This document shows, piece after piece, positions 9,036-60,080 of a stretch of 64,000 nt of DNA. Source of the DNA: Gloeomargaritales cyanobacterium VI4D9 (GTDB lineage: Bacteria > Cyanobacteriota > Cyanobacteriia > Gloeomargaritales > Gloeomargaritaceae); NCBI GenBank assembly GCA_927797885.1, contig OV696605.1, forward strand, positions 248,001 to 312,000, written 5' to 3'. The notes under the pieces were generated by a model, which saw only the letters and a list, made by a program, of their open reading frames with translations, ran no database searches and had not been told where the DNA came from. Each line of letters begins with the position of its first letter. Position 1 is the stretch's first letter. The translations under genes were made by a program, and so were the position numbers.

Positions 9036-9121
9036 CATCAGTAAAATCAGGGCGGAACGACTGAGCACTTAACTTATATCATATGACAATCTTAGATGAC
9101 TCATGTAAATACAGCCTATTA

Positions 9122-9244
9122 AGGGTACCTCTATTTATTGATTTTTGTACTTACACGGCAGGCTTGGAAGCCCCATTCTCTCATTGGCAATTATCAATAA
9201 CGTAGGGGTCATTCTCAATAGCCATGAATTAATATGAGGTGCCC
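9122..9244. repeat. Repeat family C, copy 2
   Basis: Left end AGGGTACCTC, right end GAGGTGCCC; about 123 bp and closely similar to 1976-2095. Its right end directly abuts the IS5-type transposase fragment. Confidence 0.85.
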
Positions 9245-9518
9245 ATTGGAACGAATTGGGTTGACCAGTCAAATCCATGAACAAGGCTACCGAAATCAGC
9301 CCCTAACCGCCGAGCAAAATGAAAAGAATCGCATCAAATCTCAAGTGAGAGCCAAGGTGGAACAGGTATTTGGGCAGTGGGTGATGGGTCTTGGGGGTAA
9401 GTTCATGCGTCTGATTGGTAAAACCAGAGTACCAGCGGCAATTGGTTTGAAAAATCTCACTTATAATTTCCGCCGTTATGCGTTTTGGGAGCGGCAGTCT
9501 CTTGCTGATAATCTGTGA
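9245..9518 (+). pseudogene. C-terminal fragment of an IS5-family transposase
   Basis: About 90 codons with no N-terminal part. The reading HEQGYRNQPLTAEQNEKNR, then VRAKVEQVFGQWVM and IGLKNLTYNFRRYAF, is the typical C-terminal end of IS5-group DDE transposases, including the Glu region (RAKVEQVFG). The catalytic aspartates are missing, so it is inactive. It is flanked by repeat C on the left and repeat A on the right. Confidence 0.85.
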
Positions 9519-9533
9519 GTTTTGACCCCATAC

Positions 9534-9655
9534 TATAGCAATACTAAATGAGAAGGAAATAGAGGTCGCAGGGGCACCGCCCCCGTCCTTGGTTCTGGGG
9601 AATTTCTGTATGCCTACGGCACGCAAGCTAACGTTAGTCAAGTAGGATTGCTATA
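9534..9655 (+). repeat. Repeat family A, copy 1
   Basis: 122 bp with inverted ends TATAGCAATAC and AGGATTGCTATA. The interior has a GC-rich hairpin (GGGGC ACC GCCCC) and the block TATGCCTACGGCACGCAAGC. It ends in the TA with which a diverged repeat B begins (9654). Confidence 0.88.
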
Positions 9656-10129: not shown

Positions 10130-10230
10130 TATAGCAATCCTAAACGAGAATAGAACAGGGTTCGTAGGGACACCGCCTCCCTACTTGATTCTGAGAAATT
10201 TCTGTTGGCTGATCAAGTAGGCTTGCTATA
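10130..10230 (+). repeat. Repeat family A, copy 2
   Basis: 101 bp, ends TATAGCAATCC and GGCTTGCTATA; short form lacking the TATGCCTACGGC block. The rest of the gap to 10271 shows nothing. Confidence 0.85.
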
Positions 10231-17584: not shown

Positions 17585-17745
17585 TTGACATCCTCCCCCC
17601 GCTAAAGCAGGGGGATTCCTAAGACTCACGACTTAGGTTTCTGTTTCTTTCCATTACTGGTTTTTCGCAGTTGCCCTTTAGACTGATGCCTATCAGGTCT
17701 TACACTCGCTCCACAGACTGTAACCGTGTGTCCCACTCCCAATCA
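17585..17745 (-). pseudogene. IS200/IS605 relic: TnpB C-terminus and right-end hairpin
   Basis: On the minus strand the frame ending with TGA at 17626-17628 reads GHTVTVCGASVRPDRHQ then SKGQLRKTSNGKKQKPKS, the standard last residues of many cyanobacterial TnpB proteins. Next comes the palindromic IS605 right end (CCCCCTGC TTTA GCGGGGGG, 17591-17613). Only about 38 codons of tnpB remain; the left side is cut off near 17745. Confidence 0.88.
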
Positions 17746-17758
17746 GTGATCTTAGCAC

Positions 17759-17859
17759 TATAGCAATCCTAAATGAAAATGGAATAGAGGTCGCAGGGGC
17801 ATCGTCCCCGTCCTTGGTTCTGGGAAATTTGCGTTCGTTAATCAAATAGGATTGCTATA
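17759..17859 (+). repeat. Repeat family A, copy 3
   Basis: 101 bp, ends TATAGCAATCCT and AGGATTGCTATA, short form. It abuts the IS630-type transposase relic. Confidence 0.85.
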
Positions 17860-18024
17860 GTTCTGTTTCGGGCGATAATCACCACTTTCTGACCACATTT
17901 TTAACCATCTTTGTACGGTTCTGATGCTAATACCAAATAACTCACTAACCTCAACTAGTTTTGCCCCATTTAAGACTGCTTTGACTGCTTTTTGACGCAA
18001 ATCCTAACTGTATGGTCTTGCCAT
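17860..18024 (-). pseudogene. IS630-type transposase N-terminal relic with nonsense codon
   Basis: From ATG 18024 on the minus strand the frame reads MARPYS-stop-DLRQKAVKAVLNGAKLVEVS and then LFGISIRTVQRWLKMW. This is the N-terminal helix-turn-helix of IS630-family transposases, where the seventh residue is normally Tyr (MARPYSYDLR). It ends after about 55 codons where repeat A begins. Inactive. Confidence 0.87.
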
Positions 18025-18076
18025 CGCTTTTCTCCAAGACATCTATTCTACAATAGGACGACCTTACCCTGCTTGA

Positions 18077-18188
18077 CTATAAAATTTCTACTTAGAAAAT
18101 CAAGGGTTGCAGGGGCACCCCCCGTCGGTGGGAAATTTCTGTATGCCTCCGGCACGCCAGCGAACGTTAATCAAGTAGGATTGCCATA
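18077..18188 (+). repeat. Repeat family A, degenerate copy
   Basis: The left half is diverged (TATAAAATTTCTAC), but the right half is clear: GGGAAATTTCTGTATGCCTC, CGGCACGCCAGC and AGTAGGATTGCCATA. From here to the por gene at 18408 I see nothing else recognisable. Confidence 0.7.
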
Positions 18189-18401
18189 TTGGCGAACAAA
18201 TGTTTACAAGAATCAAAGCCGCAGACAATGCCCCTGCGACCGCCGTACTGAATTAGGAGCAGGGCATCGCCACTCCTCTGCCTGTCCCCATAGTCCCACA
18301 TTCTGCTAAGTTTTTCTTCGCTTATCTAACAATTCATAACGGTTTATCACCGGGGCAAAATCACCCTTTAGAATTTTTAAGTGCAGCACTTTTTTGGGTA
18401 A

Positions 18402-21875: not shown

Positions 21876-22016
21876 TATAGCAATCCTACTTAATTGGCAT
21901 TAGCTTGCGTGCCGTAGGCATACAAAAATTTTTCAGAACCATACACCGCAGGTGCTTCTTTTACGGGGGCGGTGCCCCTGCGACCCCCTGTTCCATTCTC
22001 ATTTAGGATTGCCATA
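21876..22016 (-). repeat. Repeat family A, long copy (reverse orientation)
   Basis: 141 bp. It starts TATAGCAATCCTAC and ends AGGATTGCCATA. It has the extra segment CACCGCAGGTGCTTCTTTTA that is also found in the copy at 35296-35435, defining a longer subtype. Confidence 0.85.
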
Positions 22017-22581: not shown

Positions 22582-22853
22582 GGGCATTTCTAAAAATAGG
22601 TCGCAGGGGGGTAGCTCCCGCCCCAGAAGTGTTGAATCTTAAGATTTTGAGGGTTTGTGCCAAAATGTGCATCTAACCTGATGATACAAAACATTGTCAT
22701 TTGGGAGCCAAATTCTCATTTATAACGAAAAATCTTCTCATTAAGTGTTTTGCCTGACTCGAATTTATGAACTTTTATTCCAGGGTTCAACACTACTGCT
22801 CCCGCCCTTGGTTCTGGAAAATTTCTGTTTGTTAATCGAATAGGATTGCTATA
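22582..22853 (+). repeat. Repeat family A copy interrupted by a MITE
   Basis: The left part (to 22623) holds GGTCGCAGGGGGG-like sequence and the right part (22799-22853) holds CTTGGTTCTGG and ATAGGATTGCTATA. The two parts are separated by a 175-bp insertion and the 9-bp duplication CTCCCGCCC. Confidence 0.82.
22624..22798. mobile_element. Non-autonomous IS4-like element (MITE), 175 bp
   Basis: Ends CAGAAGTGTTGAATC and GGTTCAACACTACTG form inverted repeats that match the ends of the complete element at 60531-61638. It is flanked on both sides by CTCCCGCCC (22615-22623 and 22799-22807), a 9-bp duplication of the same length as at the full element. It has no transposase gene and would depend on one supplied in trans. 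Confidence 0.88.
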
Positions 22854-34955: not shown

Positions 34956-35079
34956 ATACAATCGCAGGGTAATTACTTCCACTGTAGCGACAAAAGGGGG
35001 AAATCGTCCCCAGGGAACCCTAAAAATTAGCAGGATCGTTGCTACAGCATACTTTCCACTGATCAAGAATCAGCGGTGA

Positions 35080-35165
35080 TAGGGGGGCAACCCCGTACTT
35101 GGTTCTGGGAAATTTCTGTATGCCTACGGCACGCAGGCTAGCGTTAATCCAATAGGATTGCTATA
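35080..35165 (+). repeat. Repeat family A, left-truncated copy
   Basis: From GGCAACCCCGTACTTGGTTC to ATAGGATTGCTATA; the left end is missing. It runs directly into repeat B. Confidence 0.75.
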
Positions 35166-35295: not shown

Positions 35296-35435
35296 TATAG
35301 CAATCCTAAATGAGAATAGAACAGGGGTCGCAGGGGCACCGCCCCCGTAAAAGAAGCACCTGCGGTGTATGGTTCTGAAAAATTTTTGTATGCCTACGGC
35401 ACGCAAGCTAATGCCAATCAAGTAGGATTGCTATA
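35296..35435 (+). repeat. Repeat family A, long copy
   Basis: 140 bp, ends TATAGCAATCCT and AGGATTGCTATA; it has the AAGAAGCACCTGCGGTGTAT insert of the long subtype seen at 21876-22016. Confidence 0.87.
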
Positions 35436-38530: not shown

Positions 38531-38630
38531 TATGGCAATCTTAATTGAGTTTAGAACAGCAGTAGCAGGGGCAACGTCCCCGTCCCTGCTTCTGGGGAAT
38601 TTCTCTGTGCCTACAGCACGCAAGCTACAG
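38531..38630 (+). repeat. Repeat family A, degenerate copy
   Basis: TATGGCAATCTTAATTGAG at the left and CAACGTCCCCGTCCCTGC, then GCCTACAGCACGCAAGC; the right end is replaced by a B-like start (ACAGCCTGTTCAC). Confidence 0.65.
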
Positions 38631-42436: not shown

Positions 42437-42548
42437 TATAGCAATCCTATAGCAATCCTACTTAATTTAGAAATAAAAATTTTCCAGAACCAAAGACGGG
42501 GGCGGTGCCCCTGCGACCCTTGTTCTAAACTCATTTGGGATTGCTATA
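42437..42548 (-). repeat. Repeat family A, copy with duplicated left end
   Basis: TATAGCAATCC occurs twice (42437 and 42448), as if a start was duplicated. It ends GGGATTGCTATA at 42548, and a second reverse-oriented partial copy continues at once. Confidence 0.8.
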
Positions 42549-42642
42549 TTTGATTGGCATTAGCTTGCTTGCTGTAGGCATACAAAAATTTCCTAGAACC
42601 AAGGACGGGACCCCTATTCCATTTTCATTTAGGATTGCTATG
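42549..42642 (-). repeat. Repeat family A, partial copy in tandem
   Basis: Contains TTGATTGGCATTAGC, TGTAGGCATACAAAAATTTC, then ATTTAGGATTGCTATG. It lacks the GC-rich hairpin arm. The remaining bases up to 42773 show no feature. Confidence 0.75.
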
Positions 42643-47482: not shown

Positions 47483-47604
47483 TATAGCAGTCCTACTTGA
47501 TTAACGTTAGCTTGCGTGCCCTGGGCATACAGAAATTCCCCAGAACCAAGGACGGGGGCGGTGCCCCTGCGACCCCTGTTCCATTCTCATTGAGGATTGC
47601 TATG
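47483..47604 (-). repeat. Repeat family A, copy (reverse orientation)
   Basis: 122 bp, TATAGCAGTCCTAC to AGGATTGCTAT, full interior with the CGTGCCCTGGGCATAC block. It ends 6 bp before the amt stop codon. Confidence 0.87.
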
Positions 47605-50179: not shown

Positions 50180-50280
50180 TATAGCAATCCTCAAGGAAAA
50201 TGGAATAGGGGTCGCAGGGGCACCGACCCCACCTTTGGTTCTGGAAACTTTCTGTTTGTAAATCAAGTAGGATTGCTATA
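50180..50280 (+). repeat. Repeat family A, short copy
   Basis: 101 bp, TATAGCAATCCTCAAGG to AGTAGGATTGCTATA. The gap 49980-50308 shows nothing else. Confidence 0.87.
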
Positions 50281-53214: not shown

Positions 53215-53316
53215 TATAGCAATCCTAAGTGAGAATGGAACAGAGGGTCGCAGGGGCACCGCCCCCGTATTTGGTTCTGGGAAATTTCTGTTCGTTAATC
53301 AAATAGGATAGCCATA
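53215..53316 (+). repeat. Repeat family A, short copy
   Basis: 102 bp, TATAGCAATCCTAAG to ATAGGATAGCCATA. The right end is somewhat diverged. The 53004-53214 interval before it has no recognised feature. Confidence 0.83.
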
Positions 53317-53435: not shown

Positions 53436-53537
53436 TATAGCAATCCTAAATGAGAATGGAACAGAGGGTCGCAGGGGCACCGTCCCCGTCCTTGGTTCTG
53501 GGGAATCTCTGTTCACTAATCAAGTAGGATTGCTATA
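53436..53537 (+). repeat. Repeat family A, short copy inserted in repeat C
   Basis: 102 bp, TATAGCAATCCTAAATG to AGTAGGATTGCTATA. It interrupts repeat C at a TA (CTTAATA), as at 59869-59969. The rest up to 53700 is the upstream region of the photoreceptor gene, with no clear promoter. Confidence 0.87.
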
Positions 53538-53700
53538 TAAGATTTTCATAATTTCATAAATTGTTTGTGATGATTATGCTTTGTGCTACCTAAAGTGATG
53601 GGCGGCGGGTAGGTTCAACCGACCGATCGACAGATTAAGGAGTAATACGGCATCATAGAATGGGAACACTTAACCCATCACTTTTTTGCCCCGACCCCCC

Positions 53701-56700
53701 ATGACTCGCACCTCCACCAAACCCACAGTTGCCGCCCCTACGGACACGCTCAGCCTCAACGGTTCTCGCTCTGACACGGTACCGATTTTGCCCAACGAAC
53801 CCGCTGTGCCGGTGCGTTCCCTGGGCAGTCGTCTTGCGATTTTAGCCATGATGACCGGCTTGTGCGGGGCGGTGGCGGGGGTGGCAACCTATGCGGCTCT
53901 GTCTCCCCAAACCCCGAATACGCAGATGGAGCAAAAGACCCTAGCGGGTGGGGCGGCGGCGGCAGTTGGACTCCTGATTGGCTTGGCGGCGGCGTTGCTA
54001 GGGCAGGGCTTGACCAAACCGGCATTTCTACTTATGCAAATGGCGCAGCGGTTGCGGCGGGGGGATTGGCAGGCACGGCTGTCCTTGCCGGGAGAGGACG
54101 AATTGAGTTATGCGGGGCAGGAATTAAACGCTTTGGCGACGACCCTGCAAACCCTCCAGGAGCAACAGCAGGCGGAACAACAGCGCACCCAGAAATTTCG
54201 AGAATTGGTGCGGCAATTGCGCCAGACCCAAGACCCCCAAGCCATTATGGATACGGCGGTGCGGGAAGTGCGGCAGGTATTGGCTTGCGACCGGGTGGTG
54301 GTCTATCGGTTTGATGCCCAGTGGGTGGGGACGGTGGTGGCGGAGTCGGTCGGTCGGGGCTGGGTAGCCGCTTTGAGTGAAAAAATTGACGACCCCTGTT
54401 TCCGGGGGCAGTACGTAACCCAGTACCAGGCGGGGCGGGTGCAGGCAACGGCGGATATTTACCAGGCGGGGTTGAAAGATTGCCATATTAAAATCCTGGA
54501 ACGGTTCCAGGTGAAGGCGAATTTGGTCACGCCCATTTTGGTGGAGGGGCAGTTGCTGGGGTTGCTGATCGCCCACCAGTGCAGTGAACCCAGGGAGTGG
54601 CGTGCCGGGGAACAGGAATTTTTGGCGCAGGTGGCGGTGCAAGTTGGGTTTGCTTTGGATCAGGCGCAGTTGTGGCAGACGCAACAGACCCAGATGACCC
54701 AGGCGAATTTGTTGAACCAAATCATCGCCAAAATGCGGGAATCCCTCAACCGCCAGACCATTTACCAGACCACCGTGCGGGAACTGCGGCAGGCACTCAA
54801 ATCCGACCGTTGCGTGGTTTATTTATTTGACGAAAAATGGCAGGGGACGATTGTGGCGGAATCGGTTTTGCCCAGTTTTCCCAAGGCTTTGGGGGCGCAG
54901 ATTCTTGACCCCTGTTTTGCGGATAAATATGTGGAACAGTACCGCTCCGGGCGGGTCAAACCCACGGCGGATATTCACAATGCGGGTTTAACGGAATGCC
55001 ATTTGCAACAACTGGAACCCTTTCAAGTAAAAGCCAATTTAGTCGCCCCGATTTTGGCAGAAGGAAAATTATTAGGGTTGCTCATTAATCATCAGTGCAG
55101 TGCCCCCCGGGAATGGCAACCGGCTGAGATTGAACTCGCCCGGCAAGTCGCTTTGCAAATGGGGTTTGCGCTGGATCAGGCGATTGCCTTGGAACGGCAG
55201 GAAGAACTGCGCCGGGAACAGGAAACTAAAGCGAATTTGGCGCAACTCTTAAACGACATTACCCTGCGGATTCGGCAATCTTTGGATCGGGAAGCCATTT
55301 TCCAAACGACGGTGCAACAGATGCGGGAAGCCCTGGAAAGTGACCGCTGTGTGGTGTATTTGTTTGATGAAAAATGGCAGGGCACGGTGGTGGCAGAATC
55401 GGTGGCTCCCGGCTGGCCGAGGGCGTTAGGGGCAAGGATTGCTGACCCCTGTTTTGCGGATAAATATGTGGAAAAATACCAACGGGGACGGGTGCAGGCG
55501 ACCCCGGATATTTACCGGGCGGGGTTGACGGAATGCCATTTGCAACAACTCGAACCCTTTGCGGTGAAGGCTAATTTAGTAGCACCAATCCTATTAGGAA
55601 ATAAACTGTTCGGGTTACTAATCGCTCACCAATGTAGCGGTGTTCGGCAGTGGCAAAGTGGGGAAATTGAATTAATGAAACAGGTGGCAGTCCAGGTGGG
55701 ATTTGCTCTGGATCAGGCGAATTTACTTGCCCAACAAAAAGCCAAAGCGGAACAGGAGCAATTACTCAACCGGATTACCTCAAAAATTCGGGAATCCCTG
55801 CAACGTGCCACCATCTACGAAACGACGATTTGGGAAGTCAAAACAGCCCTGAAATGCGACCGTTGTGTGGTGTATTTGTTTGACGAAAAATGGCAGGGCA
55901 CGGTGGTGGCGGAAGCCTTGACTCCTGGCTATCCCCCGGCGTTGGGGGCGTTGATTGCCGACCCCTGTTTTGCCGATAAATATGTGGAACAGTACCGGGC
56001 GGGGCGGGTGAAAGCGACCCCGGATATTTACCATGCGGGATTAACGCCCTGCCATTTGCAACAGTTGGAACCCTTTGCGGTCAAAGCCAATTTAGTTGCC
56101 CCGATTTTATTAGGAAATAAACTGTTTGGGTTACTCATTGCCCACCAGTGCGATGCCCCCCGCCAATGGACGGAATTGGAAATTGATTTCCTGGGCAAAG
56201 TGGCGGTGCAGGTGGGGTTTGCCCTGGATCAGGCAGTGGCATTGGAAGAGCAGGAAGCCCTGCGGCGGCAACAGGAATTGGCGGCGACCCAAGCCCAATT
56301 GGTGAATGATATTACCTCGAAAATTCGCCAAACTTTGCAACGTACCGCCATCTACAACACCACCGTGCAAGAGGTACGCAAAGCCCTGCAATCCGACCGC
56401 TGTGTGGTGTATTTGTTTGACGAAAACTGGAAAGGCACGGTGATGGCGGAAGCGGTCACAGGAGCGTGGCCTCGGGCATTGGGGGTGCAAATTCTTGACC
56501 CCTGTTTTGCGGATAAATATGTGGAAAAATACCAGCGGGGACGGGTGCAGGCGACCCCGGATATTTACAATGCCGGTTTGACCGAGTGCCATTTGCAACA
56601 ACTCGAACCCTTTGCGGTCAAAGCCAATTTGGTCGCCCCCATTCTTGCCGAAGGAAAACTCCTGGGGTTACTCATCGCCCACCAGTGCAGTGGCCCGAGG

Positions 56701-57837
56701 CAGTGGCAAAATGGGGAAATTGAATTGATGAAACAGGTGGCCTTACAGGTCGGGTTTGCCCTGGATCAGGCGATTTTGCTGGAACAGGTGGAGCAGTCCC
56801 GGCAAAAAGCCGAAGCGGTTTCCGAAGAACAAAAACGCCAGCGGGAGGAAATTCAAGGCCAGTTGGCGCAATTCCTAGGCGACATTGAGGGGGCATTCAA
56901 AGGGGATTTGACGGTGCGAGCCCGGGTGACCTCTGGGGAGATGGGCACGGTGGCGGACTTTTTCAATGCGATTGTGGAGAGTTTGCAACAGATTGTGCAA
57001 CAGGTGCAAACGGCGGCGCAGGCGGTGGCGGATACGGCGCAGAGGAGTGCCCCACCCGTGAATGCCCTATCTTCCGAGGCGGCCCGGCAAGCCCAGGTGA
57101 TTGGGGTGGCCTTGGATCAAATTCAGCAGATGGTACAGTCCATCCAGCAGGTGGCGGCTAATGCCCACAGCGCGGAATTGCAAGTCCAGCAGGCGAACCA
57201 AACGGTGCAGGAGGGGGATGAGGCCATGAACCGGACAGTGGCGGGGATTTCGGCGATTCGGGACACGGTGGCCGCCACGGCCAAAAAGGTGAAACGCCTG
57301 GGGGAAGCGTCGCAAAAAATCTCCCGGGTGGTGAATCTGATCAGCAATTTTGCCGCCCAAACCAATTTGCTGGCGTTGAATGCCGCCATTGAAGCCGCCC
57401 GGGCGGGGGAAGAGGGCCGGGGGTTTGCGGTGGTGGCGGAGGAGGTGCGTTCCTTAGCCCAACAGTCCGCCAGTGCCACCGGGGAAATCGAGCAGCTGGT
57501 GGAGGAAATTCAAGCGGAGACCAACGAGGTGGTGGCGGCGATGGAAGCGGGGACCGAGCAGGTGGTGGTGGGTACCCAGTTGGTGGCGGAGGCCCGCCAG
57601 CGGTTGAGCCAGATTGCCGCTGTGACCAGCCAAATTAGCACCCTGGTGGGGGAAATTGCCCAGGCCGCCCAAGCCCAGTCCCAGACCTCAGCAACCGTGA
57701 GCCGCACCATGCAGGAAGTGGCAGGGATTGCCAACCAAACCTCTCAGCAATCCGTGGGGGTGGCGGACTCCTTTACCCATCTGCTGGGGGTGGCCGCCGA
57801 ACTGCAGGAAAACGTGGCGCAATTCAAGGTGAGTTAG
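53701..57837 (+). CDS. Chemoreceptor with five tandem DXCF-type cyanobacteriochrome GAF domains
   Basis: 1378 aa from ATG 53701. A membrane segment pair lies near residues 45-108 ([20 protein letters not shown] and [17 protein letters not shown]), followed by HAMP, then five GAF domains. Each has a DPCF motif and, exactly 28 residues later, a Cys-His pair: Cys233/261, 405/433, 584/612, 756/784 and 935/963. This is the dual-cysteine arrangement of DXCF cyanobacteriochromes (TePixJ Cys494/522 is also 28 apart). A second HAMP-like stretch ([17 protein letters not shown]) and the MCP domain ([31 protein letters not shown]) follow. It likely senses blue/green light and feeds CheA for phototaxis. 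Chromophore binding is inferred. Confidence 0.87.
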
Positions 57838-57889
57838 CCGCACCTACCGCAAATCGCCTACATTAGTCGGGGTGACATAATTGGTGGCT

Positions 57890-58738
57890 ATGCCCTGGGT
57901 TCGGATTGTCAGTGGTGCCGTGGCGCTGGTGGTGGCACTTGGTTGGGTCACGTTGGGGGGATGGGTGTTCACGGCGGGCGTGTCCCTGATGGTATTTCTG
58001 GGGCAGAGGGAATATTTTGAATTGGCACGCATCAAGGGCATTTTACCAGCAACCAAAACCACCCTAGTCGTCAGTCAAATTTTAGTAATTGTCGCCACGG
58101 TTGCCCCCCAACTTGCAGACCCGGTGTTGGCGGTGGGCGGTAGTTGGATTTGTTTTTATCTATTATTCCAACCAAAATTGGCGACGATTGCCGATATTGC
58201 TACGTCAATTTTAGGGTTATTTTATGGGGGCTATTTGCCCAGTTTTTGGGTGCGGTTGCGGGGGATCGAACAAGCGGATTTTAGCAATTTACCCCTGTTG
58301 GGGTTTTGGCCGCAGGGGGGGGCATGGCCGTTGGGGTTAAAAGTGACACTATTAACCTTTGGTTGTATTTGGGCATCGGATATTGGGGCTTATTTTTTTG
58401 GGCGTGCTTTTGGGAAAACCAAACTATCGGAAATCAGTCCGAAAAAAACCGTAGAAGGTGCCGTGTTTGGGGTCAGTGCCAGTGTGGTTGTGGGGGCATT
58501 GGGAGCCTTCCAATTGGCTTGGCCGTTTTGGTTAGGCATCGGCTTGGGGCTGATGACCGGCATTGCTAGTTTACTAGGGGATTTAACGGAATCTATGATG
58601 AAACGGGATGCGGGGGTGAAAGATTCTGGGCATTTAATCCCCGGACATGGGGGCATTTTAGACCGGGCGGATAGCTATGTGTTTACCGCACCTTTGGCCT
58701 ATTATTTTGTCACCCTGTTGGTGCCGCTGGTCGGATGA
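57890..58738 (+). CDS. cdsA: Phosphatidate cytidylyltransferase CdsA
   Basis: 282 aa from ATG 57890. About seven hydrophobic helices and the signature near the C-terminus, MMKRDAGVKDSGHLIPGHGG followed by LDRADS. It makes CDP-diacylglycerol for phosphatidylglycerol, in the inner membrane. Convergent with the DUF2993 gene, with 29 nt overlap. Confidence 0.95.
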   Translation: MPWVRIVSGAVALVVALGWVTLGGWVFTAGVSLMVFLGQREYFELARIKGILPATKTTLVVSQILVIVATVAPQLADPVLAVGGSWICFYLLFQPKLATIADIATSILGLFYGGYLPSFWVRLRGIEQADFSNLPLLGFWPQGGAWPLGLKVTLLTFGCIWASDIGAYFFGRAFGKTKLSEISPKKTVEGAVFGVSASVVVGALGAFQLAWPFWLGIGLGLMTGIASLLGDLTESMMKRDAGVKDSGHLIPGHGGILDRADSYVFTAPLAYYFVTLLVPLVG

Positions 58739-59360
58739 TCAAATCCCCGGATAAATGGATCGAACCGGGCTGTAATTTTAACTCCTGAATCTGCACATCA
58801 GTACCAAGATAAACTATAATTTGCTTGTCATCGGAATGTAGCATTAATTCATTGGGAGTAACCAGATTAATTTGGGTGAGTAATTGGGTTTGGTCATCTA
58901 GTAACCAACGAATCTCATCCGGGTAAATTTTTATCGCTTGAATTTGGGTAATTTCTGAGTAAAATTCCCGGAGATAAGAACTTAGAGTTTCCTGAATATA
59001 GGGCAGGGAAGCATTCACATTCTGTTCGGTGATCGTAGCTTGTATTTTTACGGTAATCGGTTCTACAAATGGCTGTCCCTTCTTTTGTAAAAATGGCAAA
59101 TGGAACCGGATTGCTTGGGCGGTTAAAGCCACCTCTTGCAGGTGCATCTTTTGGTAAATAATGTTTTGGGCGCTGACCTGAATATAGGGCAAACAGCCGG
59201 ATAGCCAGACTTGGGATGCGTCCTGGAGTGAAACCTCAAGTGCCTGAACCTGGGTCACCTGCCGTTGTAGCCACCAGCGCAGGAGGGTGGCCAGGGGACG
59301 GCTGAACCCCTGATTAGCGGGCAAAGGCACCCACCCCGTAGAGACATTCTGGGGCGGCAC
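58710..59360 (-). CDS. DUF2993 (LmeA-like) protein
   Basis: 216 aa. ALEVSLQDASQVWLSGCLPYIQ (split), VSAQNIIYQKMHLQEVAL and NELMLHSDDKQIIVYLG are like the DUF2993 family, which includes LmeA lipid-binding proteins. The N-terminus lacks a signal peptide in the longest form and overlaps the upstream gene by 47 nt, so a later start (for example GTG 59327) is possible. Confidence 0.75.
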   Translation of the reverse strand: MPPQNVSTGWVPLPANQGFSRPLATLLRWWLQRQVTQVQALEVSLQDASQVWLSGCLPYIQVSAQNIIYQKMHLQEVALTAQAIRFHLPFLQKKGQPFVEPITVKIQATITEQNVNASLPYIQETLSSYLREFYSEITQIQAIKIYPDEIRWLLDDQTQLLTQINLVTPNELMLHSDDKQIIVYLGTDVQIQELKLQPGSIHLSGDLIIRPAAPTG

Positions 59361-59766
59361 AATGGCTCATAATCGCCTGTATCCGAAAGGTGGCGGTGCG
59401 CCGTGGGGTGACAGAAACCACCGGAATTGCATCAGGGCGCATATCTTCATCAATGAAATTGCGGTTTTCATCAAACAAACGCAAATCCATATCCCGGCAA
59501 TCCTGGTCACACACGGCAACAATAATGTAGTTTACCCCCGCCCGCAGGGTAATGGTAATAAATTCCGCATCCCGGGGACGCAATTTACCCGTAAATGGGT
59601 CGTGGGACAACCGATAGCCCTCCCGTTCCGCCGCCCGTCCTGCTTCCCGCAACTGTTGCCGCACACTGGCGAGAAATGGATTGGGCTGGGCTTGAGCAAC
59701 CCCCACTCCGCCAATTAGCAAACACAAACCCACCAGCAACCGCCCCCACCGTCCCGCCATGACCAT
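59314..59766 (-). CDS. Secreted hypothetical protein
   Basis: About 150 aa from ATG 59766 (or 59760). A signal peptide (WGRLLVGLCLLIGGVGVAQAQ) precedes a small domain with AGVNYIIVAVCDQDCRDMDLRLFDE (split; two Cys) and FRIQAIMSHCAAPECLYGVG. The pattern resembles periplasmic beta-sandwich proteins in cyanobacteria that lack an assigned function. Confidence 0.7.
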   Translation of the reverse strand: MVMAGRWGRLLVGLCLLIGGVGVAQAQPNPFLASVRQQLREAGRAAEREGYRLSHDPFTGKLRPRDAEFITITLRAGVNYIIVAVCDQDCRDMDLRLFDENRNFIDEDMRPDAIPVVSVTPRRTATFRIQAIMSHCAAPECLYGVGAFAR

Positions 59767-59858
59767 ACCCCTTTTGAGACTTGAAGATATATTTACCTTA
59801 ACCAAACCTATCAATTGTTTCCCCATTAGTAACAGAATATTTTTAGAGTTTGTTATGA

Positions 59859-60080
59859 AGGGTAGCTCTATAGCAATCCTATTTGATTAACCAACAAAAA
59901 TTTCCCAGAACCAAGGACGGGGGCGGTGCCCCTGCGACCCCTGTTCCATTCTCATTTAGGATTGCTATATGTATTGATTTTTGTACCTATACGGCAGGCT
60001 CGGAAGCCCCATTCTTTCGTCGGCAATTATCAATAACGCAGGGGTCATTCTCAATAGCTGTGAATTAATAGAGGTGCCCT
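59859..60080. repeat. Repeat family C, copy 4, split by a family A copy
   Basis: Left end AGGGTAGCTCTA (59859-59870), right part from 59970 (GTATTGATTTTTG to TAGAGGTGCCCT at 60080). Joining them restores the C consensus CTCTATTTATTG around a single TA. Confidence 0.87.
59869..59969 (-). repeat. Repeat family A, short copy with TA target duplication
   Basis: The element proper is TAGCAATCC...GGATTGCTA (59871-59967, 97 bp), flanked by TA on both sides, while the intact C copies have one TA here. Confidence 0.9.

Follow-up and report, generated by a model that had tools for sequence, protein, structure and literature searches.

The window analysed here is a 64,000-nucleotide stretch of DNA (G000:C1:248001-312000) from a 3.16-Mb genome that consists of a single contig. 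At 59856-60079 on the forward strand, it carries a copy of repeat C that is interrupted by a 101-bp element, repeat A, located at 59869-59969 on the reverse strand (flanking TAs included). The junctions within 59850-60080 read ...GGGTAGCTC-TA-TAGCAATCC...GGATTGCTA-TA-TGTATTG..., with the two ends of A, TAGCAATCC...GGATTGCTA, each flanked by a TA, and the uninterrupted copy of repeat C at 9113-9252 (forward strand), which provides the empty site, has one TA at the point matching the insertion, as a sequence-only reading of this locus had described. Repeat C is itself MITE-like, being about 130 bp long with inverted ends near GGGCACCTCTATTTATT...AATTAATAGAGGTGCCC (window positions 9113-9252, 59856-60079, and 1973-2094), and approximately ten near-complete copies of it are present in 464 kb.

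Repeat A is short and non-coding (101-141 bp), and its best copies have perfect outer inverted repeats of 13 bp. The end sequence TAGCAATCC occurs 46 times in the window at no more than one mismatch, compared with 13.6 expected occurrences, and no shuffle reached this number. A profile built from 46 copies of A gave 17 matches in the window, of which 11 are full length (101-141 bp including the two flanking TAs) and six are partial, and 0 matches on the reversed window sequence. In addition to the copy within repeat C, full-length copies reside on the forward strand at 9534-9655, 10130-10230, 17759-17859, 35296-35435, 50180-50280, 53215-53316, and 53436-53537, and on the reverse strand at 21876-22016, 42448-42548, and 47483-47603; the copy at 42448-42548 sits in the end of a second A copy, which is partial. 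The partial profile matches are found at 18099-18188, 22795-22853, 35060-35165, and 38531-38607 on the forward strand and at 18188-18257 and 42577-42641 on the reverse strand. The longer variants (21876-22016, 35296-35435, 9534-9655, and 47483-47603) contain, at fixed inner places, one or two additional short inverted repeats, such as TGCCTACGGCA and CACCTGCGGTG, and the variant at 21876-22016 carries extra inner hairpins.

The insertion of A is directed to TA. Copies with perfect 9-bp ends number 71, and TA flanks 67 of them on both sides; the remaining four have it on one side, with some other dinucleotide opposite. The background frequency of TA is 0.041 (4.1% of the dinucleotides sampled). 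The consensus of the target sites reads (C/A)TA(T/G), in which only the neighbouring bases are informative because the copies were chosen for their TA flanks. Eight insertion sites have uninterrupted counterparts that carry just one TA. These comprise the C copy at 59869 and a second C copy; site 1 of the parental insertion sequence described below, with comparators in the same genome and in the congeneric genomes G003 and G004; site 2 of the parental element, which was hit twice in opposite orientations; position 1860395, in another repeated, probably mobile, sequence; position 2788339; and position 531795, where the TA is kept in one of two comparators. The TA duplication proposed for the family thus recurs at other copies, in the flanks as well as in the empty sites.

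Genome-wide, the pattern TAGCAATCCTA-N60-90-TAGGATTGCTA retrieves 99 copies with perfect 11-bp ends, and the reversed-control pattern retrieves none. In an even sample of the genome (20 evenly spaced stretches of 20 kb, 400 kb in total), 65 A matches, 30 of them near full length, occupy 1.4% of the sampled DNA; with a counting error of about 12% on the 65 matches, this extrapolates to approximately 510 matches in the genome, of which about 240 would be near full length. The family is therefore a genome-wide one, and its copy number lies at the high end for bacteria, given that ERIC in Photorhabdus, a high example, reaches 711 (PMC10969869). Three copies are 100% identical, which points to a fairly recent spread.

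An abundant hairpin-forming repeat might also be a selected regulatory or structural RNA or DNA element, such as a REP-like palindrome or a terminator, whose palindromic ends merely give it the look of a MITE. Copies of A fold strongly on both strands (z of -3.7 to -6.1), the inner GC-rich hairpin is kept across three genomes, and none of 82 A midpoints falls within ORFs of at least 150 aa, although such ORFs make up 78% of the sample. However, an intergenic location is expected from selection against gene disruption, and the insertion itself also breaks ORFs. In the inner stem, only one of 14 pairs shows a two-sided change (covariation term of -0.96 kcal/mol), and Rfam has no match at the locus; with almost no compensatory change, a conserved RNA was rejected as the explanation of the hairpin. 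A role as a terminator was likewise dismissed, since the preference for convergent gene ends that it entails is not seen: 22 of 78 copies lie in convergent gaps, which account for 24% of gap length. Together with the TA duplications and the empty sites, which already demonstrate that A inserts, these observations make a regulatory element very improbable.

The copy at 17759-17859 adjoins a transposase relic, which the sequence-only reading had taken to be of IS630 type and had cited in support of an IS630 affiliation of A. The first part holds: the relic, at 17857-18082 on the reverse strand and resuming at 17736-17761 beyond A, encodes the N-terminal HTH of an IS630 transposase. The second part does not, because the relic belongs to a different element (IS-B, with ends TATAGTCAAGCAGGG) that was hit by an A insertion and is not the parent of A. 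The intact version of the target is GCACTATGACCCTTTTGATAGTTC, compared with GCAC-TA-[A]-TA-GTTC in the window, and 12 bp are missing; this copy is therefore not flanked by a clean TA duplication but by two different TAs, with the 12 bp between them lost. Such a loss would be accounted for by removal of the segment between two neighbouring insertions or by deletion of target DNA. A genome search for the DDE_3 transposase domain identified 23 places, most of which represent two other IS630 elements with ends TATAGTCAAGCAGGG or TACAGTCTTTT, and the IS630 relics near A copies were accordingly ruled out as the parent, as they derive from two other IS630 elements with different ends. The TACAGTCTTTT element (L055-L061) is of IS630 type, about 1.03 kb long, and present in approximately seven copies, most of which are 99% alike; it has apparently been active recently.

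A full IS630-family element with the ends of A, TATAGCAATCC, of the kind predicted by the sequence-only reading, is present elsewhere in the same genome, at G000:C1:959166-960415 (L071 795-2044), where its ends are TATAGCAATCCTAG...TCATTTAGGATTGCTATA. The pieces of its transposase match the Pfam domains HTH_23, HTH_33, and DDE_3; with the NCBIfam IS630 model NF033545, the DDE part reaches 100.4 bits, just above the cut-off of 100. A DDE transposase with N-terminal HTH domains, TA duplication, and inverted ends, the last seen in L071, L128, and L129, place the parent in the IS630 family. L071 is the only full parental copy in the genome, four further places being fragments, and an A copy at L071 1121-1222 divides its transposase gene. 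The insertion site is intact in G003, in G004, and in a relic in the same genome; the parental elements without A at that site are L128 in G003 (DDE part 93% identical) and L129 in G004 (79%). The left end of the A consensus matches the right end of the parent at 26 of 27 bases, and the other end has in common with the parent 13 bases along with the spaced motif TAGCAATCCTA-nn-TGA-AAC, while nothing in the parent corresponds to the GC-rich interior of A. A simple internal deletion of the parental copy found here was thus rejected as the origin of A, since homology stops about 27 bp into one end and, at the other, after about 13 bp plus the spaced motif. Beyond the genus, TATAGCAATCC is located at both ends of elements coding for related transposases in Nostoc, other Nostocales, Iningainema, and Chamaesiphon.

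Within the genus, the parental transposase frame is broken at an A-run of 8, 9, or 11 bases (L071 1423, L128 1469, and L129 1463, the last two on the reverse complement), and the break may reflect either slippage or decay. The homologue in L081, a Nostocales copy, is a single 358-aa frame.

As a short, non-coding repeat with inverted ends that match those of an IS630-family element, and with TA duplicated at its insertions, A is almost certainly an IS630-type MITE, and the transposase of the same-ended IS630-family element most likely acts on its ends in trans; the assignment of the family to TA-targeting IS630/Tc1-mariner MITEs, first suggested from the window, is borne out. Its ends, the TA duplication, the empty sites, the matching-ended parent, and the insertions of A into parental copies are evident at the level of sequence; that a parent-type transposase moves A would follow by analogy with ISY100. 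According to this model, A, which lacks coding capacity, would present its ends (TAGCAATCCTAnnTGA...) to the transposase of the IS630-family element, and the enzyme would cut A out and paste it at a TA, preferably (C/A)TA(T/G), duplicating the TA in the process. Two observations count against this explanation, namely that resemblance to the parent is limited to the outer ends of A (27 bp at one end and, at the other, about 13 bp plus the spaced motif) and that the sole full parental copy in the genome is broken. As that copy is split by A itself, the family has probably stalled here and is probably immobile in this genome at present, unless a transposase is supplied from another source.

Alternatively, A could be mobilised, in place of the parent, by one of two further IS630 elements of this genome that seem to have been active recently, namely the TACAGTCTTTT element, with its approximately seven near-identical copies, or the TATAGTCAAGCAGGG element. 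Several copies of these elements are 98-99% alike, and active transposases may therefore be encoded by them; the parent with matching ends, by contrast, is broken. However, the ends of both elements are unlike those of A beyond the TA, and transposases of the IS630 type show specific binding to their own inverted repeats (PMC2170065), which leaves mobilisation by either element extremely improbable.

A further proposal, which would supplement trans-mobilisation by the parent, is that A acts as a brake on its own parent, with repeated insertion into the transposase gene limiting transposition, as has been suggested for RUP in pneumococcus. Three A insertions in parental copies are clear: one at site 1 of L071, one at site 2 of L125, and one at site 2 of G003 L131/L133 in the opposite orientation; a fourth is likely in the parental relic L137 of G003. 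This amounts to three or more independent events, spread over two genomes, and two of them hit the same TA in opposite orientations. However, A occurs at about 160 matches per Mb, nearly all of which lie in the 20-odd percent of the genome outside long ORFs, and from this we infer a density of approximately 0.75 per kb of unconstrained DNA, at which several insertions would be expected in about 5 kb of parental element without any special targeting. A braking role is for this reason considered unlikely, and so is the fuller account in which insertion into the parental transposase is a selected form of self-limitation, by which a family among the densest of bacterial MITEs would then have shut itself down.

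A is a new high-copy MITE of a well-understood sort, comparable to RUP and Nezha, and is unusual mainly for its copy number; a literature search for its end sequence returned chance matches only. By description, RUP is a similar element, a 107-bp non-coding repeat whose inverted ends resemble those of a resident IS630 element, which duplicates TA and inserts into the transposase genes of insertion sequences; it is present in about 110 copies and mobilised by IS630-Spn1 (PMC2229807, PMC3049150). Unlike RUP, A resides in a host of a different phylum, has about five times more matches, has a single, split parent, and contains an inner GC-rich hairpin. Nezha, a cyanobacterial MITE, is likely a relative of A in kind, and its proposed mover is the transposase of an insertion sequence with similar ends (ISNpu3-like), according to the passages that deal with it in PMC3049150 and PMC10969869. 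ISY100 (ISTcSa) of Synechocystis, an IS630/Tc1-mariner element, likewise targets and duplicates TA as described, and imperfect inverted repeats of about 24 bp are enough for it to transpose, with about 30 bp of each end allowing TA-specific transposition; in contrast to A, it is autonomous, with a single transposase gene (PMC2170065). The MITEs of Anabaena sp. 90 resemble A in being high-copy, cyanobacterial, and mostly intergenic, but they total 147 complete or partial copies and are described as type II, without a resident insertion sequence that shares their ends, whereas A has one (PMC3542288).

The system thus offers a clean pair of a MITE and its parent in a small cyanobacterial genome, with target sites preserved and with the parental element caught after its breakage by its own parasite. 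It also carries a warning for annotation, in that hundreds of short GC-rich hairpins in this genome are copies of a mobile element and not regulators.

In the searches run, A is confined to four of the seven genomes of the genus. It is abundant in the congeners G003 (about 230 matches per Mb) and G004 (about 180 per Mb), as estimated from 200-kb samples, and G005 has it too; searches of G001 and G002 found none, and G006 gave one marginal match. As the genus includes genomes with and without A, it could serve to trace how a bacterial MITE rises and stalls. Outside the genus, the strict same-ends pattern was matched in 4 of the 291 genomes searched in the class, in each case only by a single copy with a different interior, which indicates that A is local and that its ends are widespread with their insertion-sequence family. 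A comparison of the window with a stretch of G003 for the presence or absence of A copies gave no empty site in unique sequence, as just 6.2 kb of the fetched stretch is collinear (window 53640-59858 with G003:C1:1142681-1148900). A copies lie no more than a few hundred bases from either end of this shared block, which suggests repeat-linked rearrangement. Copies of A also occur in tandem, with five in a row in G003 (L185 2093-2524) and three in G000 (G000:C1:1591147-1591497), the latter separated by a 24-25-bp direct repeat, TATCAGTAATTGGAATCACCTCACC.
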